Positions 27,396-32,293 of a stretch of DNA of 32,629 nt are shown here, piece after piece. Origin of the DNA: Candidatus Avanaerovorax faecigallinarum (GTDB taxonomy: Bacteria; Bacillota; Clostridia; Peptostreptococcales; Anaerovoracaceae); assembly GCA_019113145.1 (NCBI GenBank), contig DXHZ01000042.1:1-32629 (forward strand), read 5' to 3'. The notes below the pieces were generated by a model that did no database searches, was not told the DNA's origin, and saw only the letters and a program-made list of their open reading frames with translations. The position numbers were made by a program, and so were the translations under genes. Position 1 is the first letter of the stretch. Every line of letters starts with the position of its first letter.

Positions 27396-28289
27396 ATGAA
27401 ACTTAAGAAGCTTTTAGCTGCAGGAATGATCGCAGTTCTCGCAATGGGCGCACTTACCGCATGCGGCGGCAACGACGAGCCGGCTGAAGAGGAAGGCGGC
27501 GATACCGCAGCAGCCATGACCGGCGACATCAGTGTACTGACCAGAGAAGACGGTTCCGGAACGAGAGGCGCATTCATAGAGCTGTTCGGAATTGAAGGAG
27601 AGGACGGCACGGATAACACTATCGCAGAGGCAGAGGTAACCAACAGCACCTCCGTAATGATGCAGACCGTAAGCGGCAACAAGCAGGCTATCGGATACGT
27701 ATCCCTCGGCTCCCTCGATGAAAGCCTTGTAAAGGCTCTGAAGGTTGACGGTGTAGAGGCGACCGCAGACAACGTAAAGAGCGGCGACTACAAAGTGTCC
27801 AGACCGTTCAACATCGTAACAAAGGGTGACGTAAGCGCTGAGGCTCAGGATTTCATTAACTTCATCATGAGTGAAGAGGGACAGGCAGTAGCTGAAGAAG
27901 AAGGCTACATCAGTGAAGGAAACCAGGGCGCTTTTGAAGGCGGAGACGTAAGCGGAACTATCACCGTATCAGGTTCTTCCTCCGTAACCCCGCTTATGGA
28001 AAAGCTGAAAGAAGCATACAACGCTGTAAACCCTGACCTTGAGATTGAGATTCAGCAGTCCGACTCCACTACCGGAGTAACCGACGCAATCAACGGAATC
28101 AGCGACATCGGAATGGCTTCCAGAGAACTTAAGGACGATGAAACTTCCCAGGGAATCACCGGAACAGTAATCGCCCTTGACGGAATCGCAGTAATCGTAA
28201 ATTCCGAGAATCCGATTGATGACATCGCAAGCGACATGATCACCAAGATTTACACCGGCGAAGTTACCGCATGGGACGACGTTAAATAA
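27396..28289 (+). CDS. pstS: Phosphate-binding lipoprotein PstS with swapped halves
   Basis: The phosphate receptor of the Pst transporter. A signal peptide ends in a lipobox (ALTAC, Cys23). The order of the mature protein is unusual. Residues 43-178 match what is normally the second half of PstS (TREDGSGTRGAF, IGYVSLGSL, SRPFNIVTKG, INFIMSEEGQ), and residues 185-297 match the normal first half (TITVSGSSSVTPLMEKL, DIGMASRELKD, ALDGIAVIVN, IYTGEVTAWDDV), after which the protein ends. Both phosphate-contact loops (SGSSS 192-196, REDGSGTR 50-57) are kept, so a circularly permuted but working fold is likely. AGGAG precedes the ATG. pstC follows after a hairpin. Confidence 0.92.
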   Translation: MKLKKLLAAGMIAVLAMGALTACGGNDEPAEEEGGDTAAAMTGDISVLTREDGSGTRGAFIELFGIEGEDGTDNTIAEAEVTNSTSVMMQTVSGNKQAIGYVSLGSLDESLVKALKVDGVEATADNVKSGDYKVSRPFNIVTKGDVSAEAQDFINFIMSEEGQAVAEEEGYISEGNQGAFEGGDVSGTITVSGSSSVTPLMEKLKEAYNAVNPDLEIEIQQSDSTTGVTDAINGISDIGMASRELKDDETSQGITGTVIALDGIAVIVNSENPIDDIASDMITKIYTGEVTAWDDVK

Positions 28290-28395: not shown

Positions 28396-29253
28396 ATGAA
28401 AGGTAGCTTTAAGGAAAAGGCCATGCAGCTTGTGTTTCTCATAGCGGCATGCGCATCCATAGTAGCCGTAATACTCATCTGCGTCTACATGTTCGGAAAC
28501 GGAATTCCGGCGATGCAGAAGATAGGCTTTAAGGAGTTCCTCACGGGAACGGAGTGGAAGCCTAACAACGAGATATTCGGAATCCTTCCTATGATAATAG
28601 GAAGCATATACGTTACAATCGGCGCAATAATAATCGGCGTGCCTATAGGCATACTTTGCGCCACATACATGGCGAAGTTCTGTCCGCCAAAAATCCACAG
28701 AATACTCAAGCCTGCAATCGATCTTCTGGCAGGCATTCCGTCCATAGTATACGGATTCTTCGGCCTTATGGTCATAGTTCCGATCATACAGGACGTCTTC
28801 GGCACGGGAGGAAAGGGAATCCTCACCGCATCCATAATGCTGGGAATAATGATTCTCCCTACCATTATAAGCGTGTCCGAATCAAACATAAGAGCGGTGC
28901 CCGACGCATATTACGAAGGCGCTCTGGCTCTTGGGGCGACTCACGAGCGCAGCGTGTTCTTCACCGTAATACCTGCGGCAAAGTCGGGAATTACTGCGGC
29001 AGTAATACTGGGCGTGGGAAGAGCCATAGGAGAAACCCTTGCGGTTTCCGTAATAGTGGGAAACTCGCCGGTAATACCGGAAAGCGTTCTCGATATGGCG
29101 AGAACCATGACTACCAACATAGTCCTCGAAATGGGCTATGCGGAGGGACTTCACAGGGAAGCCCTCATCGCGACGGCAGTAGTGCTGTTCGTGTTCATAC
29201 TCATAATCAACCTGTTGTTCTCACTGCTTAAACGAAAGGGAGGGAAGGCATAA
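28396..29253 (+). CDS. pstC: Phosphate ABC transporter permease PstC
   Basis: A 285-residue permease with about six membrane helices. The EAA loop that contacts the ATPase reads EGALALGATHERSVFFTVIP, and AGIPSIVYGFFGL is the usual Pst motif. The GAGGAG site is about 13 bases before the ATG, a slightly long spacing. The stop overlaps the pstA start by one base. Confidence 0.93.
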   Translation: MKGSFKEKAMQLVFLIAACASIVAVILICVYMFGNGIPAMQKIGFKEFLTGTEWKPNNEIFGILPMIIGSIYVTIGAIIIGVPIGILCATYMAKFCPPKIHRILKPAIDLLAGIPSIVYGFFGLMVIVPIIQDVFGTGGKGILTASIMLGIMILPTIISVSESNIRAVPDAYYEGALALGATHERSVFFTVIPAAKSGITAAVILGVGRAIGETLAVSVIVGNSPVIPESVLDMARTMTTNIVLEMGYAEGLHREALIATAVVLFVFILIINLLFSLLKRKGGKA

Positions 29254-30086
29254 TGCAGAAATTCAAAGGACATCCCCTTTCCCTGTTCCTGAACATACTG
29301 GTAAAGCTGGCGACCCTGCTTACCGTAGGCGTGCTGGTTGCGGTAGTGGGATACATACTGATAATGGGAATACCTAACCTTAAACCTTCACTCTTTGAGT
29401 GGGAATACACCACCGACAACGTTTCCATGATGCCCGCCATCATAAACACCCTGACCATGACGGCTCTCGCTCTTCTCATAGCAGTGCCTTTCGGAGTGTT
29501 CTCGGCAATCTATCTCGTGGAGTACGCGGGCCGCGGGAACAAAATCGTCGGCGTGGTGAGAATCACAACGGAAACCCTTTCGGGAATACCTTCCATAGTG
29601 TACGGACTGTTCGGCTACCTCATGTTCGTAACTGCCTTTAAGTCCTACAACATTCTGGCAGGTATACTGACCCTTGCAATAATGATTCTTCCTCTCATAA
29701 TGAGAACTACGGAAGAAGCCTTAAAAGGCGTTCCGGACAGCTACAGAGAAGGCAGTCTGGGACTTGGAGCGGGAAAGCTGCGCACTGTTTTCAGGGTAGT
29801 ACTCCCTTCCGCAATCCCCGGCATCCTGGCGGGAGTCATCTTAGGTATAGGAAGGATTGTGGGAGAAACAGCGGCTTTACTATACACGGCAGGAACGGTT
29901 ACAGGTGTTGCTACGAGCCTGTTCTCGTCTGGAAGGACCTTATCTGTACACATGTACGCTCTCCTCTCAGAGGGACTCTATACGGATCAGGCGTACGCAA
30001 CAGCTGTAGTCCTGCTGGTAATGGTAATCATCATAAACGCTCTTTCCGGACTGGTTGCAAGAGCGGTCGGAAGAAATAAGGAATAA
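29253..30086 (+). CDS. pstA: Phosphate ABC transporter permease PstA
   Basis: A 277-residue permease, partner of PstC. It has about six membrane helices, SGIPSIVYGLFGYL, and the EAA loop EGSLGLGAGKLRTVFRVVLP. Its ATG overlaps the pstC stop (TAATG), so the two subunits are translationally coupled. pstB begins 18 bases after the stop. Confidence 0.93.
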   Translation: MQKFKGHPLSLFLNILVKLATLLTVGVLVAVVGYILIMGIPNLKPSLFEWEYTTDNVSMMPAIINTLTMTALALLIAVPFGVFSAIYLVEYAGRGNKIVGVVRITTETLSGIPSIVYGLFGYLMFVTAFKSYNILAGILTLAIMILPLIMRTTEEALKGVPDSYREGSLGLGAGKLRTVFRVVLPSAIPGILAGVILGIGRIVGETAALLYTAGTVTGVATSLFSSGRTLSVHMYALLSEGLYTDQAYATAVVLLVMVIIINALSGLVARAVGRNKE

Positions 30087-30104: not shown

Positions 30105-30860
30105 ATGGCGACAAAATATGAAATAAAGGACCTGAATCTCTACTACGGTAATTTTCACGGCCTGAAGGATATAAACTTAAGCATTCCGGAAAAGGAGATA
30201 ACAGCCCTCATAGGTCCGTCGGGCTGCGGAAAATCCACCCTTTTAAAGACTTTGAACAGGATGAACGACCTGGTCGAAGGGTGTAAGATTGACGGCCTCG
30301 TGGCTCTTGACGGCATGGACATCTACGCAAAGGGTGTAGACGTTAACAACCTGAGAAAGCGTGTAGGCATGGTATTTCAGAAGCCGAATCCTTTTCCTAT
30401 GAGCGTCTACGACAACGTGGCCTACGGCCCGAGAACCCACGGCATTAAGAACAAGACCGAGCTTGACGAGATAGTCGAAAATTCCCTTAAGGCGGCCGCA
30501 ATCTGGGACGAGCTGAAGGACAGACTGAAAAAGAGTGCTCTGGGACTTTCAGGAGGTCAACAGCAGAGACTCTGCATCGCAAGAGCCCTTGCCGTAGAGC
30601 CTGAGGTTCTCCTCATGGACGAGTCCACCTCGGCCCTCGACCCGATTTCCACGTCGAAAATCGAGGATCTTGCCATAGAGCTGAAGGAGAAGTACACCAT
30701 AATAATGGTTACCCACAACATGCAGCAGGCAGTGAGAGTATCCGACAACACCGCATTCTTCCTCCTGGGAGAAATGATAGAATACGACAAGACGGAAAAG
30801 CTCTTCTCGGTACCGTCAAACAAGAAAACCGAGGATTACATTACAGGGAGGTTCGGTTGA
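30105..30860 (+). CDS. pstB: Phosphate ABC transporter ATP-binding protein PstB
   Basis: A 251-residue ATPase driving phosphate uptake. It has Walker [10 protein letters not shown] (37-45), the [15 protein letters not shown]-loop region, signature [15 protein letters not shown], Walker [14 protein letters not shown] and the H-loop in [13 protein letters not shown] stands before the ATG. The stop overlaps the phoU start by one base (TGATG). Confidence 0.96.
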
Positions 30861-31525
30861 TGAGAAACAGATTCGACGAGCAGCTTGCGCTGCTTAACGT
30901 AGAGCTTATAAAAATGGGAAGCCTTTGTGAGCTGGCGGTTTCAAACGCCATGAAAGGCCTCTTTGACGGCAGCGAGGAAATGCTGAATATCGCGGTGGAC
31001 ACCGACCACGAAATAGACGAGAAGGAAAAGGAGATAGAAAACCTCTGCCTCAAGCTCCTTCTCCAGCAGCAGCCGGTGGCAAGAGACCTGAGAGTGATAT
31101 CCTCCGCCCTCAAGATGATTTCCGACATGGAAAGAATCGGCGACCAGGCCTCCGATATATCTGAGATAGCGGGCATTATCAAGGGCACCGACGCCCAGAC
31201 CCATACCCATCTCAAGAAGATGGCCGACGCCGCAACGAAGATGGTGGCCGATGCGGTGAGATCCTTCGTGGACAAAGACCTTAAACTTGCCCATCAGGTT
31301 ATGCGCGACGACGACGTCGTGGACGAAGTATTCAACAAGATGAGGCAGGACATAATAGCCTTCATCCGCGGCGGCGAGGCTTCGGCGGAGCTCTGCCTCG
31401 ACCTTATGATGATAGCGAAATACCTGGAGAGAATCGGCGACCACGCCGTAAACATCGCCGAGTGGGTGGAGTTTTCCATTCTTGGCGAACATCTCTCCCG
31501 CGAGGAACGCTACGCAGACAAATAG
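30860..31525 (+). CDS. phoU: Phosphate transport regulator PhoU
   Basis: A 221-residue helical protein of two PhoU repeats, each with the metal-binding E/DR.GD type motif: DMERIGDQASDI in the first and YLERIGDHAVNIAEW in the second. PhoU restrains Pst uptake and Pho signalling when phosphate is ample. I place the start at the ATG 30860, which overlaps the pstB stop and has GGGAGG eight bases ahead; a TTG three bases earlier is less likely. No phoP/phoR pair lies in the window. Confidence 0.94.
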   Translation: MRNRFDEQLALLNVELIKMGSLCELAVSNAMKGLFDGSEEMLNIAVDTDHEIDEKEKEIENLCLKLLLQQQPVARDLRVISSALKMISDMERIGDQASDISEIAGIIKGTDAQTHTHLKKMADAATKMVADAVRSFVDKDLKLAHQVMRDDDVVDEVFNKMRQDIIAFIRGGEASAELCLDLMMIAKYLERIGDHAVNIAEWVEFSILGEHLSREERYADK

Positions 31526-31741: not shown

Positions 31742-32293
31742 ATGTTTATACTCACGGCAGCACGTATTGTGAAAAAAAGCATAGAGGAAATTTATGCGAG
31801 ATATGGGGCCATGATGAAAAATCTGGCATATTCGATTATAAGAGATTACCAGTACGCTGAAGACAGTGTACAGGAATCTCTCTTAGCGCTTTCTAAGAAT
31901 CTGGACAAGCTTGACGATGTAGATTCAGCAAAGTCTAAGAACTATATTTACACAGTTACCAAAAACGATGCTCTGACTATGCGTGAAAAAATAAATAAAA
32001 ATTTTCAGCGAGATGTCCAATTTTACGATGATGAAGAGGTTAATAACATAAAGGGAGATTTAGATATAGAAGCGTTTTGTGATGAGAGAGGTCTGGGAGA
32101 GGACGTCCTGGAGCTGTTGTCCTCTCTCGATGAGCTCGATAAGGACATCCTGGTCTACAGATTTGCTGACGGATACAGCGTGAAAGAAATAGCGGAAATG
32201 ATGGAAAAAAATCCGGACTTCGTTTATAAACGCATACAGCGTGCACTAGTAAAACTGAGAACGTGTCTGAGGGGTGAAAGCGATGGGCGATAG
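31742..32293 (+). CDS. Sigma-70 family RNA polymerase sigma factor (ECF-like)
   Basis: A 183-residue two-domain sigma factor. Residues 13-85 form region 2, with DYQYAEDSVQESLLAL as the core-binding helix. Residues 120-172 form region 4, with LDELDKDILVYRFADGYSVKEIAEMM as the helix-turn-helix. The ATG at 31742 has only a weak GGGGCG site; an internal GTG near 31769 is an alternative. The base composition is more AT-rich than upstream genes, so it may come from a different source. The next gene overlaps its end by 11 bases and is a membrane protein, the usual arrangement of an ECF sigma factor and its antagonist. Confidence 0.9.
   Translation: MFILTAARIVKKSIEEIYARYGAMMKNLAYSIIRDYQYAEDSVQESLLALSKNLDKLDDVDSAKSKNYIYTVTKNDALTMREKINKNFQRDVQFYDDEEVNNIKGDLDIEAFCDERGLGEDVLELLSSLDELDKDILVYRFADGYSVKEIAEMMEKNPDFVYKRIQRALVKLRTCLRGESDGR

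Follow-up and report, generated by a model that had tools for sequence, protein, structure and literature searches.

The stretch of DNA analysed here (the window; 32,629 nucleotides from Candidatus Avanaerovorax faecigallinarum) carries a pstS gene followed by the genes for the other parts of a Pst phosphate transporter. The preliminary description of its product had claimed a circular permutation, with the usual second half of PstS standing first and the usual first half last. This raises the questions of whether the order is genuine, whether such a protein could still serve as the binding protein of the transporter, how widely the form occurs, and by which route it may have arisen.

Segment order, ligand residues, and chain path

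The window protein is a PstS with a circularly permuted segment order. Segment models detect a single C-type segment in it, followed by a single N-type segment, and their per-segment identity to 17 canonical relatives is 37-51%. The Pfam family PF12849 matches with 124.5 bits (cutoff 27) in two stretches, and the NCBIfam model TIGR02136 also matches in two stretches (E 1.4e-56), with a score of 191.9 bits that lies below its curated cutoff of 206.6. After rotation of the protein to canonical order, TIGR02136 aligns in one stretch and reaches 205.6 bits, about 1 bit below the cutoff; the shortfall is therefore mostly due to segment order. The preliminary description would fail if a canonical first half were hidden within residues 25-45; none is there, and each segment occurs once.

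Comparison with solved structures leads to the same result. The canonical PDB chains 4q8r, 4gd5, and 1twy align with the window protein as two swapped pieces, in which the stretch from residue 177 or 187 to 296 corresponds to the first half of the canonical chain and residues 44-175 to the second. Chain 4h1x, by contrast, is colinear with the window protein over residues 39-297 (E 3.7e-60 in the PDB chain search). Among the ten other PDB chains listed at E ≤ 0.001, nine match the unrotated protein in two stretches and 9l8j matches one half only. Rotation was used as a control: it brings all ten of these chains to a single stretch and breaks the 4h1x match into two. Because rotation splits the match to 4H1X and unifies the canonical ones, 4H1X has the same permuted order as the window protein.

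The pstS reading frame is unbroken up to its TAA stop, and AGGAGAG is found 5' of the ATG. The lipobox cysteine, Cys23, is invariant across a 41-row alignment of permuted PstS proteins. A search of the window's own genome returned a single PstS match at E ≤ 0.001, which is the permuted protein. The features of the locus are collected in Table 1, together with two tandem genes from other genomes. For phoU, the listed start codon is TTG, and the beginning of the gene overlaps the end of pstB; a gene for a sigma-70-type factor (31742-32293) lies directly after the operon.

Table 1. Coordinates of the permuted pstS gene, its parts, its operon, and two fused tandem genes (positions in the window unless a locus is named)
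Feature	Coordinates	Strand	Basis or remark
permuted pstS	27396..28289	+	whole gene with stop; 297-aa lipoprotein
signal peptide and lipobox (LTAC, Cys23)	27396..27464	+	taken from translation
acidic tether, residues 24-41	27465..27518	+	translation; low confidence in AlphaFold2 model
C-type segment, residues 42-171 (usual second half of PstS)	27519..27908	+	segment models, PDB alignments
linker, residues 172-186, connecting the old C and N ends	27909..27953	+	translation, PDB alignments
N-type segment, residues 187-296 (usual first half of PstS)	27954..28283	+	segment models, PDB alignments
pstC	28396..29253	+	TIGR02138, E 6.7e-87, above NCBI cutoff
pstA	29253..30086	+	TIGR00974, E 1.1e-80, above NCBI cutoff
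pstB	30105..30860	+	TIGR00972, E 1.9e-125, above NCBI cutoff
phoU	30857..31525	+	TIGR02135, E 9.2e-59, above NCBI cutoff
fused tandem PstS N-C-N-C, genome G363	L128:1105-2697	-	segment models; 531-codon frame
fused tandem PstS N-C-N-C, genome G343	L129:1102-2688	-	544-codon frame; 529 residues from likely start

The C-type segment carries R50 and the S54-G55-T56 phosphate loop, and the N-type segment carries the G193-S196 loop, S224, S242, and R243. The choice of ligand residues was guided by the residue numbering of E. coli PstS. Eight positions (G193, S194, S196, S224, G227, S242, R243, and R136) are identical in 112/112 permuted units, and R50, S54, G55, and T56 are identical in 111 of them, with a gap in the remaining unit. 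The 31 canonical and tandem units all have the same letters at R50, S54, G55, T56, S194, S196, S224, S242, R243, and R136; G193 and G227 are each matched in 30/31, with an alanine in the odd one, and G53 in 27/31. Position 195 is serine in 106/112 permuted units, including the window, versus threonine in 30/31 canonical and tandem units. Positions 83-85 and 245 are variable among units. By homology, the conserved loop residues are predicted to bind phosphate. The claim that both phosphate loops are kept in the permuted protein is thus right.

An AlphaFold2 model built with 41 permuted sequences has a mean pLDDT of 89.8 and two lobes, and its low-confidence blocks are the first 40 residues, that is, the signal and tether. 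Foldseek places 4h1x at the top (E 6.8e-34), with the next match at 6.9e-6. VIA-align likewise ranks 4h1x first (Z 35.5; 1.4 Å over 253 residues; 45% identity), and the canonical PstS chains that it lists cover only one half, the best being 1twy_A with a Z of 12.1 over 134 residues. For PhoX of X. citri, according to the available portion of the published description, residues 101-251 form an uninterrupted domain II, the hinge strand of 16 residues spans 93-108, and S34, S62, D80, and R159 are among the ligands (PMC5439949). A strand of the model at residues 254-269, also of 16 residues, begins 12 residues past S242, and the PhoX hinge strand begins 13 past D80. By these binding-residue offsets, the new ends (297 and 42) would map within PhoX domain II, with both crossing strands left whole. 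The cut thus seems to fall in a loop of lobe II, away from the hinge, and by the same offsets the joined old ends would both be in lobe I. The preliminary description had proposed that the two-lobe fold tolerates the permutation through a rejoining of the hinge strands. Its account of the order, of the retained loops, and of the occurrence in related Clostridia stands, but the hinge proposal does not agree with the offsets, which would put the cut in lobe II.

Distribution of the permuted form

The first 139 loci contain 112 reading frames of order C-N (a number that contains repeats of one record, L003 = L031), 27 of order N-C, two of order N-C-N-C, and one fragment each with only a C or only an N segment. 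Every one of the 112 permuted frames has one C and one N segment, and no duplicate remnant is present. Most of the named carriers belong to Lachnospiraceae or other Clostridia; Acidaminococcaceae (Negativicutes) and Streptococcaceae are represented as well. One further carrier (L065) is a metagenome bin labelled Bacteroides, which may be a mislabelled Bacillota bin. Three congeneric genomes share the order at 92-98% identity. It is also found in 80/80 loci from named records, including the isolates Aminicella lysinilytica DSM 28287 and Dorea sp. D27; these loci are the best 80 of at least 588 relatives, a choice that is biased to permuted forms and gives no frequency estimate. The expectation that the form is common to related Clostridia was therefore borne out, and the range is wider than was supposed, as it extends to Negativicutes and Streptococcus, and the PDB has had an example from 2012 onward.

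When genomes of the phylum that are at least 90% complete were drawn evenly, at least 296 of the 398 drawn had a match; at least 18 are permuted, including the window's own, and at least two are tandem. Here, matches down to about E 1.5e-23 and at most five candidates per genome were scored, and a protein was counted as permuted when the match ran across both segments in the permuted order. In a sample of 61 genomes, the permuted form was present in 13, and 11 of these were among the 37 genomes of the window's own family. At least seven of the 37 have the canonical form, so both forms are interspersed within the family. Two streptococcal genomes were searched, those of Streptococcus mitis and S. 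hillyeri, and both hold the permuted PstS plus, on another contig, a canonical-order PstS (two pieces), whereas the window's genome has the permuted form only. Viral contigs gave 26 pattern matches for permuted PstS, and none of these is a relative.

The gene after pstS is normally pstC. Among 40 wide loci (14 permuted, 24 canonical, and two tandem), pstC is the next gene downstream of pstS in 14/14, 23/24, and 2/2, respectively; the one canonical exception, L182, has pstS listed behind phoU.

Origin of the permutation and competing explanations

A PstS tree was calculated from rotated sequences with 95 of 143 units, after removal of permuted rows with at least 75% and others with at least 90% identity to a kept row. 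Of its 65 permuted rows, 64 fall under one starred branch (support 96), among them the window row L001 and the Streptococcus mitis row L079, which stands in for 4H1X. With L083 left out, a single permuted clade scores better than the free tree (p-AU 0.992). The free tree was a quick one, and a tree that is 106 log units better exists. Because this better tree was missed and more than half of the inner branches in the first tree (50 of 92) are open, the inner branching is weak. The trees were built without a distant outgroup, and L028 and L083 are on very long branches. The canonical order is regarded as ancestral on account of its occurrence in the other PDB chains.

The permease genes follow the same division. 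A PstC-PstA tree was made from 45 of 112 operons, selected with identity limits of 70% and 95%. In it, one starred branch (support 100) unites 20 of 21 permuted rows, and a single permuted clade is not rejected (p-AU 0.378). The window's genus and Streptococcus are outside the kept rows of this tree, and their PstC proteins were compared directly: that of the window's genus (L200) is 79% and those of the streptococci (L079, L110) are 72-73% identical to kept permuted rows, versus 55-56% to the best canonical row for all three. When all 112 operons that have both genes are considered, the closest PstC comes from a permuted operon for 87/88 permuted rows and for 0/24 canonical or tandem rows, a pattern that holds for both streptococci. 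As the permuted PstS proteins and their PstC-PstA partners each form a supported clade, with the exception of one long-branched genome, the permuted form probably originated once, within a single lineage of the operon. The simplest reading would be one permutation in one operon lineage, which was later moved between classes together with its permease.

The exception in both trees is a very divergent permuted PstS of genome G059 (L028:1501-2481, minus strand; also L199), whose PstC and PstA are long-branched as well. Beyond its own genus, this PstS is matched best by the permuted protein of genome G002, over residues 7-326 of 327, and the PstC of its genome is closest to that of a canonical operon, at 37% identity. 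A 197-codon fragment in the congener G570 is 83% identical to this PstS. A second, independent permutation is not claimed here, since one clade is not rejected and the best outside match is permuted.

A possible intermediate arrangement was found in two genomes of one genus, G343 and G363. Their pstS genes encode fused tandem proteins of about 530 residues that resemble lipoproteins and are followed by pstC, pstA, pstB, and phoU. Within each protein, the two copies are 73-75% identical, and in the G363 protein the central stretch C1-N2 is colinear with the window protein from one end to the other (41% identity, 1e-56). Since the tandem proteins branch among canonical rows, apart from the permuted clade, they are analogues and not ancestors of the permuted form; they show that the tandem step expected for duplication followed by trimming can occur. 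Outside the genus g259, no tandem PstS was detected at E ≤ 1e-30 among 15 genomes of the class, two of which are tandem. By eye, a histidine-kinase-like frame lies upstream of the tandem pstS in both loci. Neighboring copies of other kinds also occur. Locus L042 has adjoining permuted pstS copies as separate genes (394-1263 and 1464-2327), L048 has the end of an N segment upstream of the permuted gene, cut at the locus edge, and L083 has a second, divergent permuted pstS (approximately 77-1030) upstream of the main copy, with an in-frame stop, which is possibly decayed.

The best explanation as a whole, to which we assign a probability of roughly 0.88, is a Pst phosphate-binding lipoprotein that is circularly permuted, has its ends in lobe II, and arose once by duplication and trimming. 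According to this scheme, the chain would start in lobe II, cross to lobe I, form all of lobe I, and return to complete lobe II, with the old C and N ends bridged in lobe I by the short linker. Lobe I would then be unbroken and lobe II split, whereas in canonical PstS lobe II is unbroken and lobe I is split, and the lipid tether would exit from lobe II. Phosphate would be held between the two lobes, in the manner of canonical PstS, before being passed to PstC-PstA. The permuted protein most likely functions as the ordinary binding protein of a Pst transporter, in an old form that many relatives share. Its gene would have arisen through an in-frame tandem duplication of pstS, after which the first N and the last C segments were lost, once, and it would since have been transmitted together with its own permease genes.

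The route could also have been a different one, in which pstS was split into two genes and re-fused, or its segments were shuffled. The lack of a duplicated remnant in 112/112 permuted frames is what such a route would leave, but the fused tandem genes of two genomes, with a middle part that matches the permuted protein, and the separate tandem copies in L042 favor duplication. Moreover, no pair of half-genes is listed in the loci, and the two half-segment frames (L048 and L083) adjoin permuted genes. We therefore consider split and re-fusion, or shuffling, unlikely.

Doubtful to a similar degree is the proposal that the permutation is adaptive, such that a lipid tether attached to lobe II, instead of lobe I, alters the contact with PstC-PstA. 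The fidelity of permuted PstS to one PstC-PstA lineage (20/21 rows; nearest PstC permuted in 87/88) is in line with it, and the authors of work on TpMglB-2, a permuted lipoprotein discussed below, suggest a tethering idea for their own protein in the available part of their paper (PMC4990184). However, co-inheritance is expected anyway for genes of one operon. A lipobox was detected by pattern in all 17 canonical relatives examined, so anchoring alone is no explanation, and at least one permuted PstS, that of L105, seems by eye to carry a signal peptide of the ordinary, non-lipid kind. This signal peptide appears to have no lipobox cysteine, and the protein may be secreted and not lipid-anchored.

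A broader hypothesis is also rather improbable: an ancient permutation became fixed in one pstSCAB-phoU lineage and spread between Bacillota classes only as a whole operon. The move of the tether and the splitting of the lobe would have co-adapted with PstC-PstA, permuted and canonical PstS would not be interchangeable, and the tandem would be a half-way form that is still used.

It is very improbable that the permuted protein binds or senses a ligand other than phosphate. The TIGR02136 score of 191.9 bits, below the cutoff of 206.6, could be read in this way, but rotation alone brings it to one bit short, the ligand-loop residues are those of canonical relatives, and the operon is pstCAB-phoU. 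An assembly or sequencing error that joined the halves in the wrong order, the other ground on which the preliminary description might have fallen, is refuted: although the assembly is a draft in 99 contigs, the order is common to the three congeners, the 80/80 named-record loci, isolates, and the structure 4h1x.

Significance and relation to known systems

The importer to which the permuted form belongs is central to the nutrition of common gut bacteria and of streptococci. The permutation can be traced through a large clade, and relatives without it, a solved structure, and a tandem half-way form are available, so that it is a useful case for studying the origins of permutations. It also matters for annotation, as a permuted PstS drops below a curated cutoff largely through its order, and order-bound structure comparison pairs it with only half of its canonical relatives. 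Among the matches listed from open-licence PMC papers, neither a description of PstS as permuted nor the term 4H1X was found.

Neither a natural permutation of a binding protein nor a permuted PstS structure is new, as the former is known from TpMglB-2 and the latter is in the PDB as 4H1X. TpMglB-2 (Tp0684), the glucose-binding lipoprotein of Treponema pallidum, is classed as "Type Ic" and described, in the accessible text of the report, as a natural circular permutation that has kept ligand binding; the Type Ic group includes Gram-positive gut bacteria (PMC4990184). TpMglB-2 differs from permuted PstS in fold class and ligand. By the same text, it has a Type I sugar-binding fold and an added fourth crossover, and its permuted part is poorly conserved, with 13% identity to E. 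coli MglB in the authors' own attempt (PMC4990184), whereas the value for each PstS segment is 37-51%. TpMglB-2 is not among the matches listed for the window protein in the Pfam, PDB-chain, and VIA-align searches.

The closest known counterpart is 4H1X (SP_2084, chain "pstS 2", from Streptococcus pneumoniae TIGR4, released in 2012), which has the same order as the window protein from end to end. We take SP_2084 to be the PstS encoded by pst1 of the pneumococcus. A histidine-kinase-like frame, seen by eye upstream of the permuted gene of S. mitis, fits this placement, since the genes for PnpRS precede pst1. In S. pneumoniae D39, both Pst transporters take up phosphate and Pst1 is primary at low phosphate, according to the portion of the study available (PMC4913102). 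If SP_2084 belongs to pst1, functional support for a permuted PstS already exists. In canonical PstS, as represented by 4Q8R and 4GD5 of Clostridium perfringens and 1TWY of Vibrio cholerae, both halves are homologous to those of the permuted protein, but the N segment comes first; the ligand-loop residues and the operon partners are shared by the two forms.
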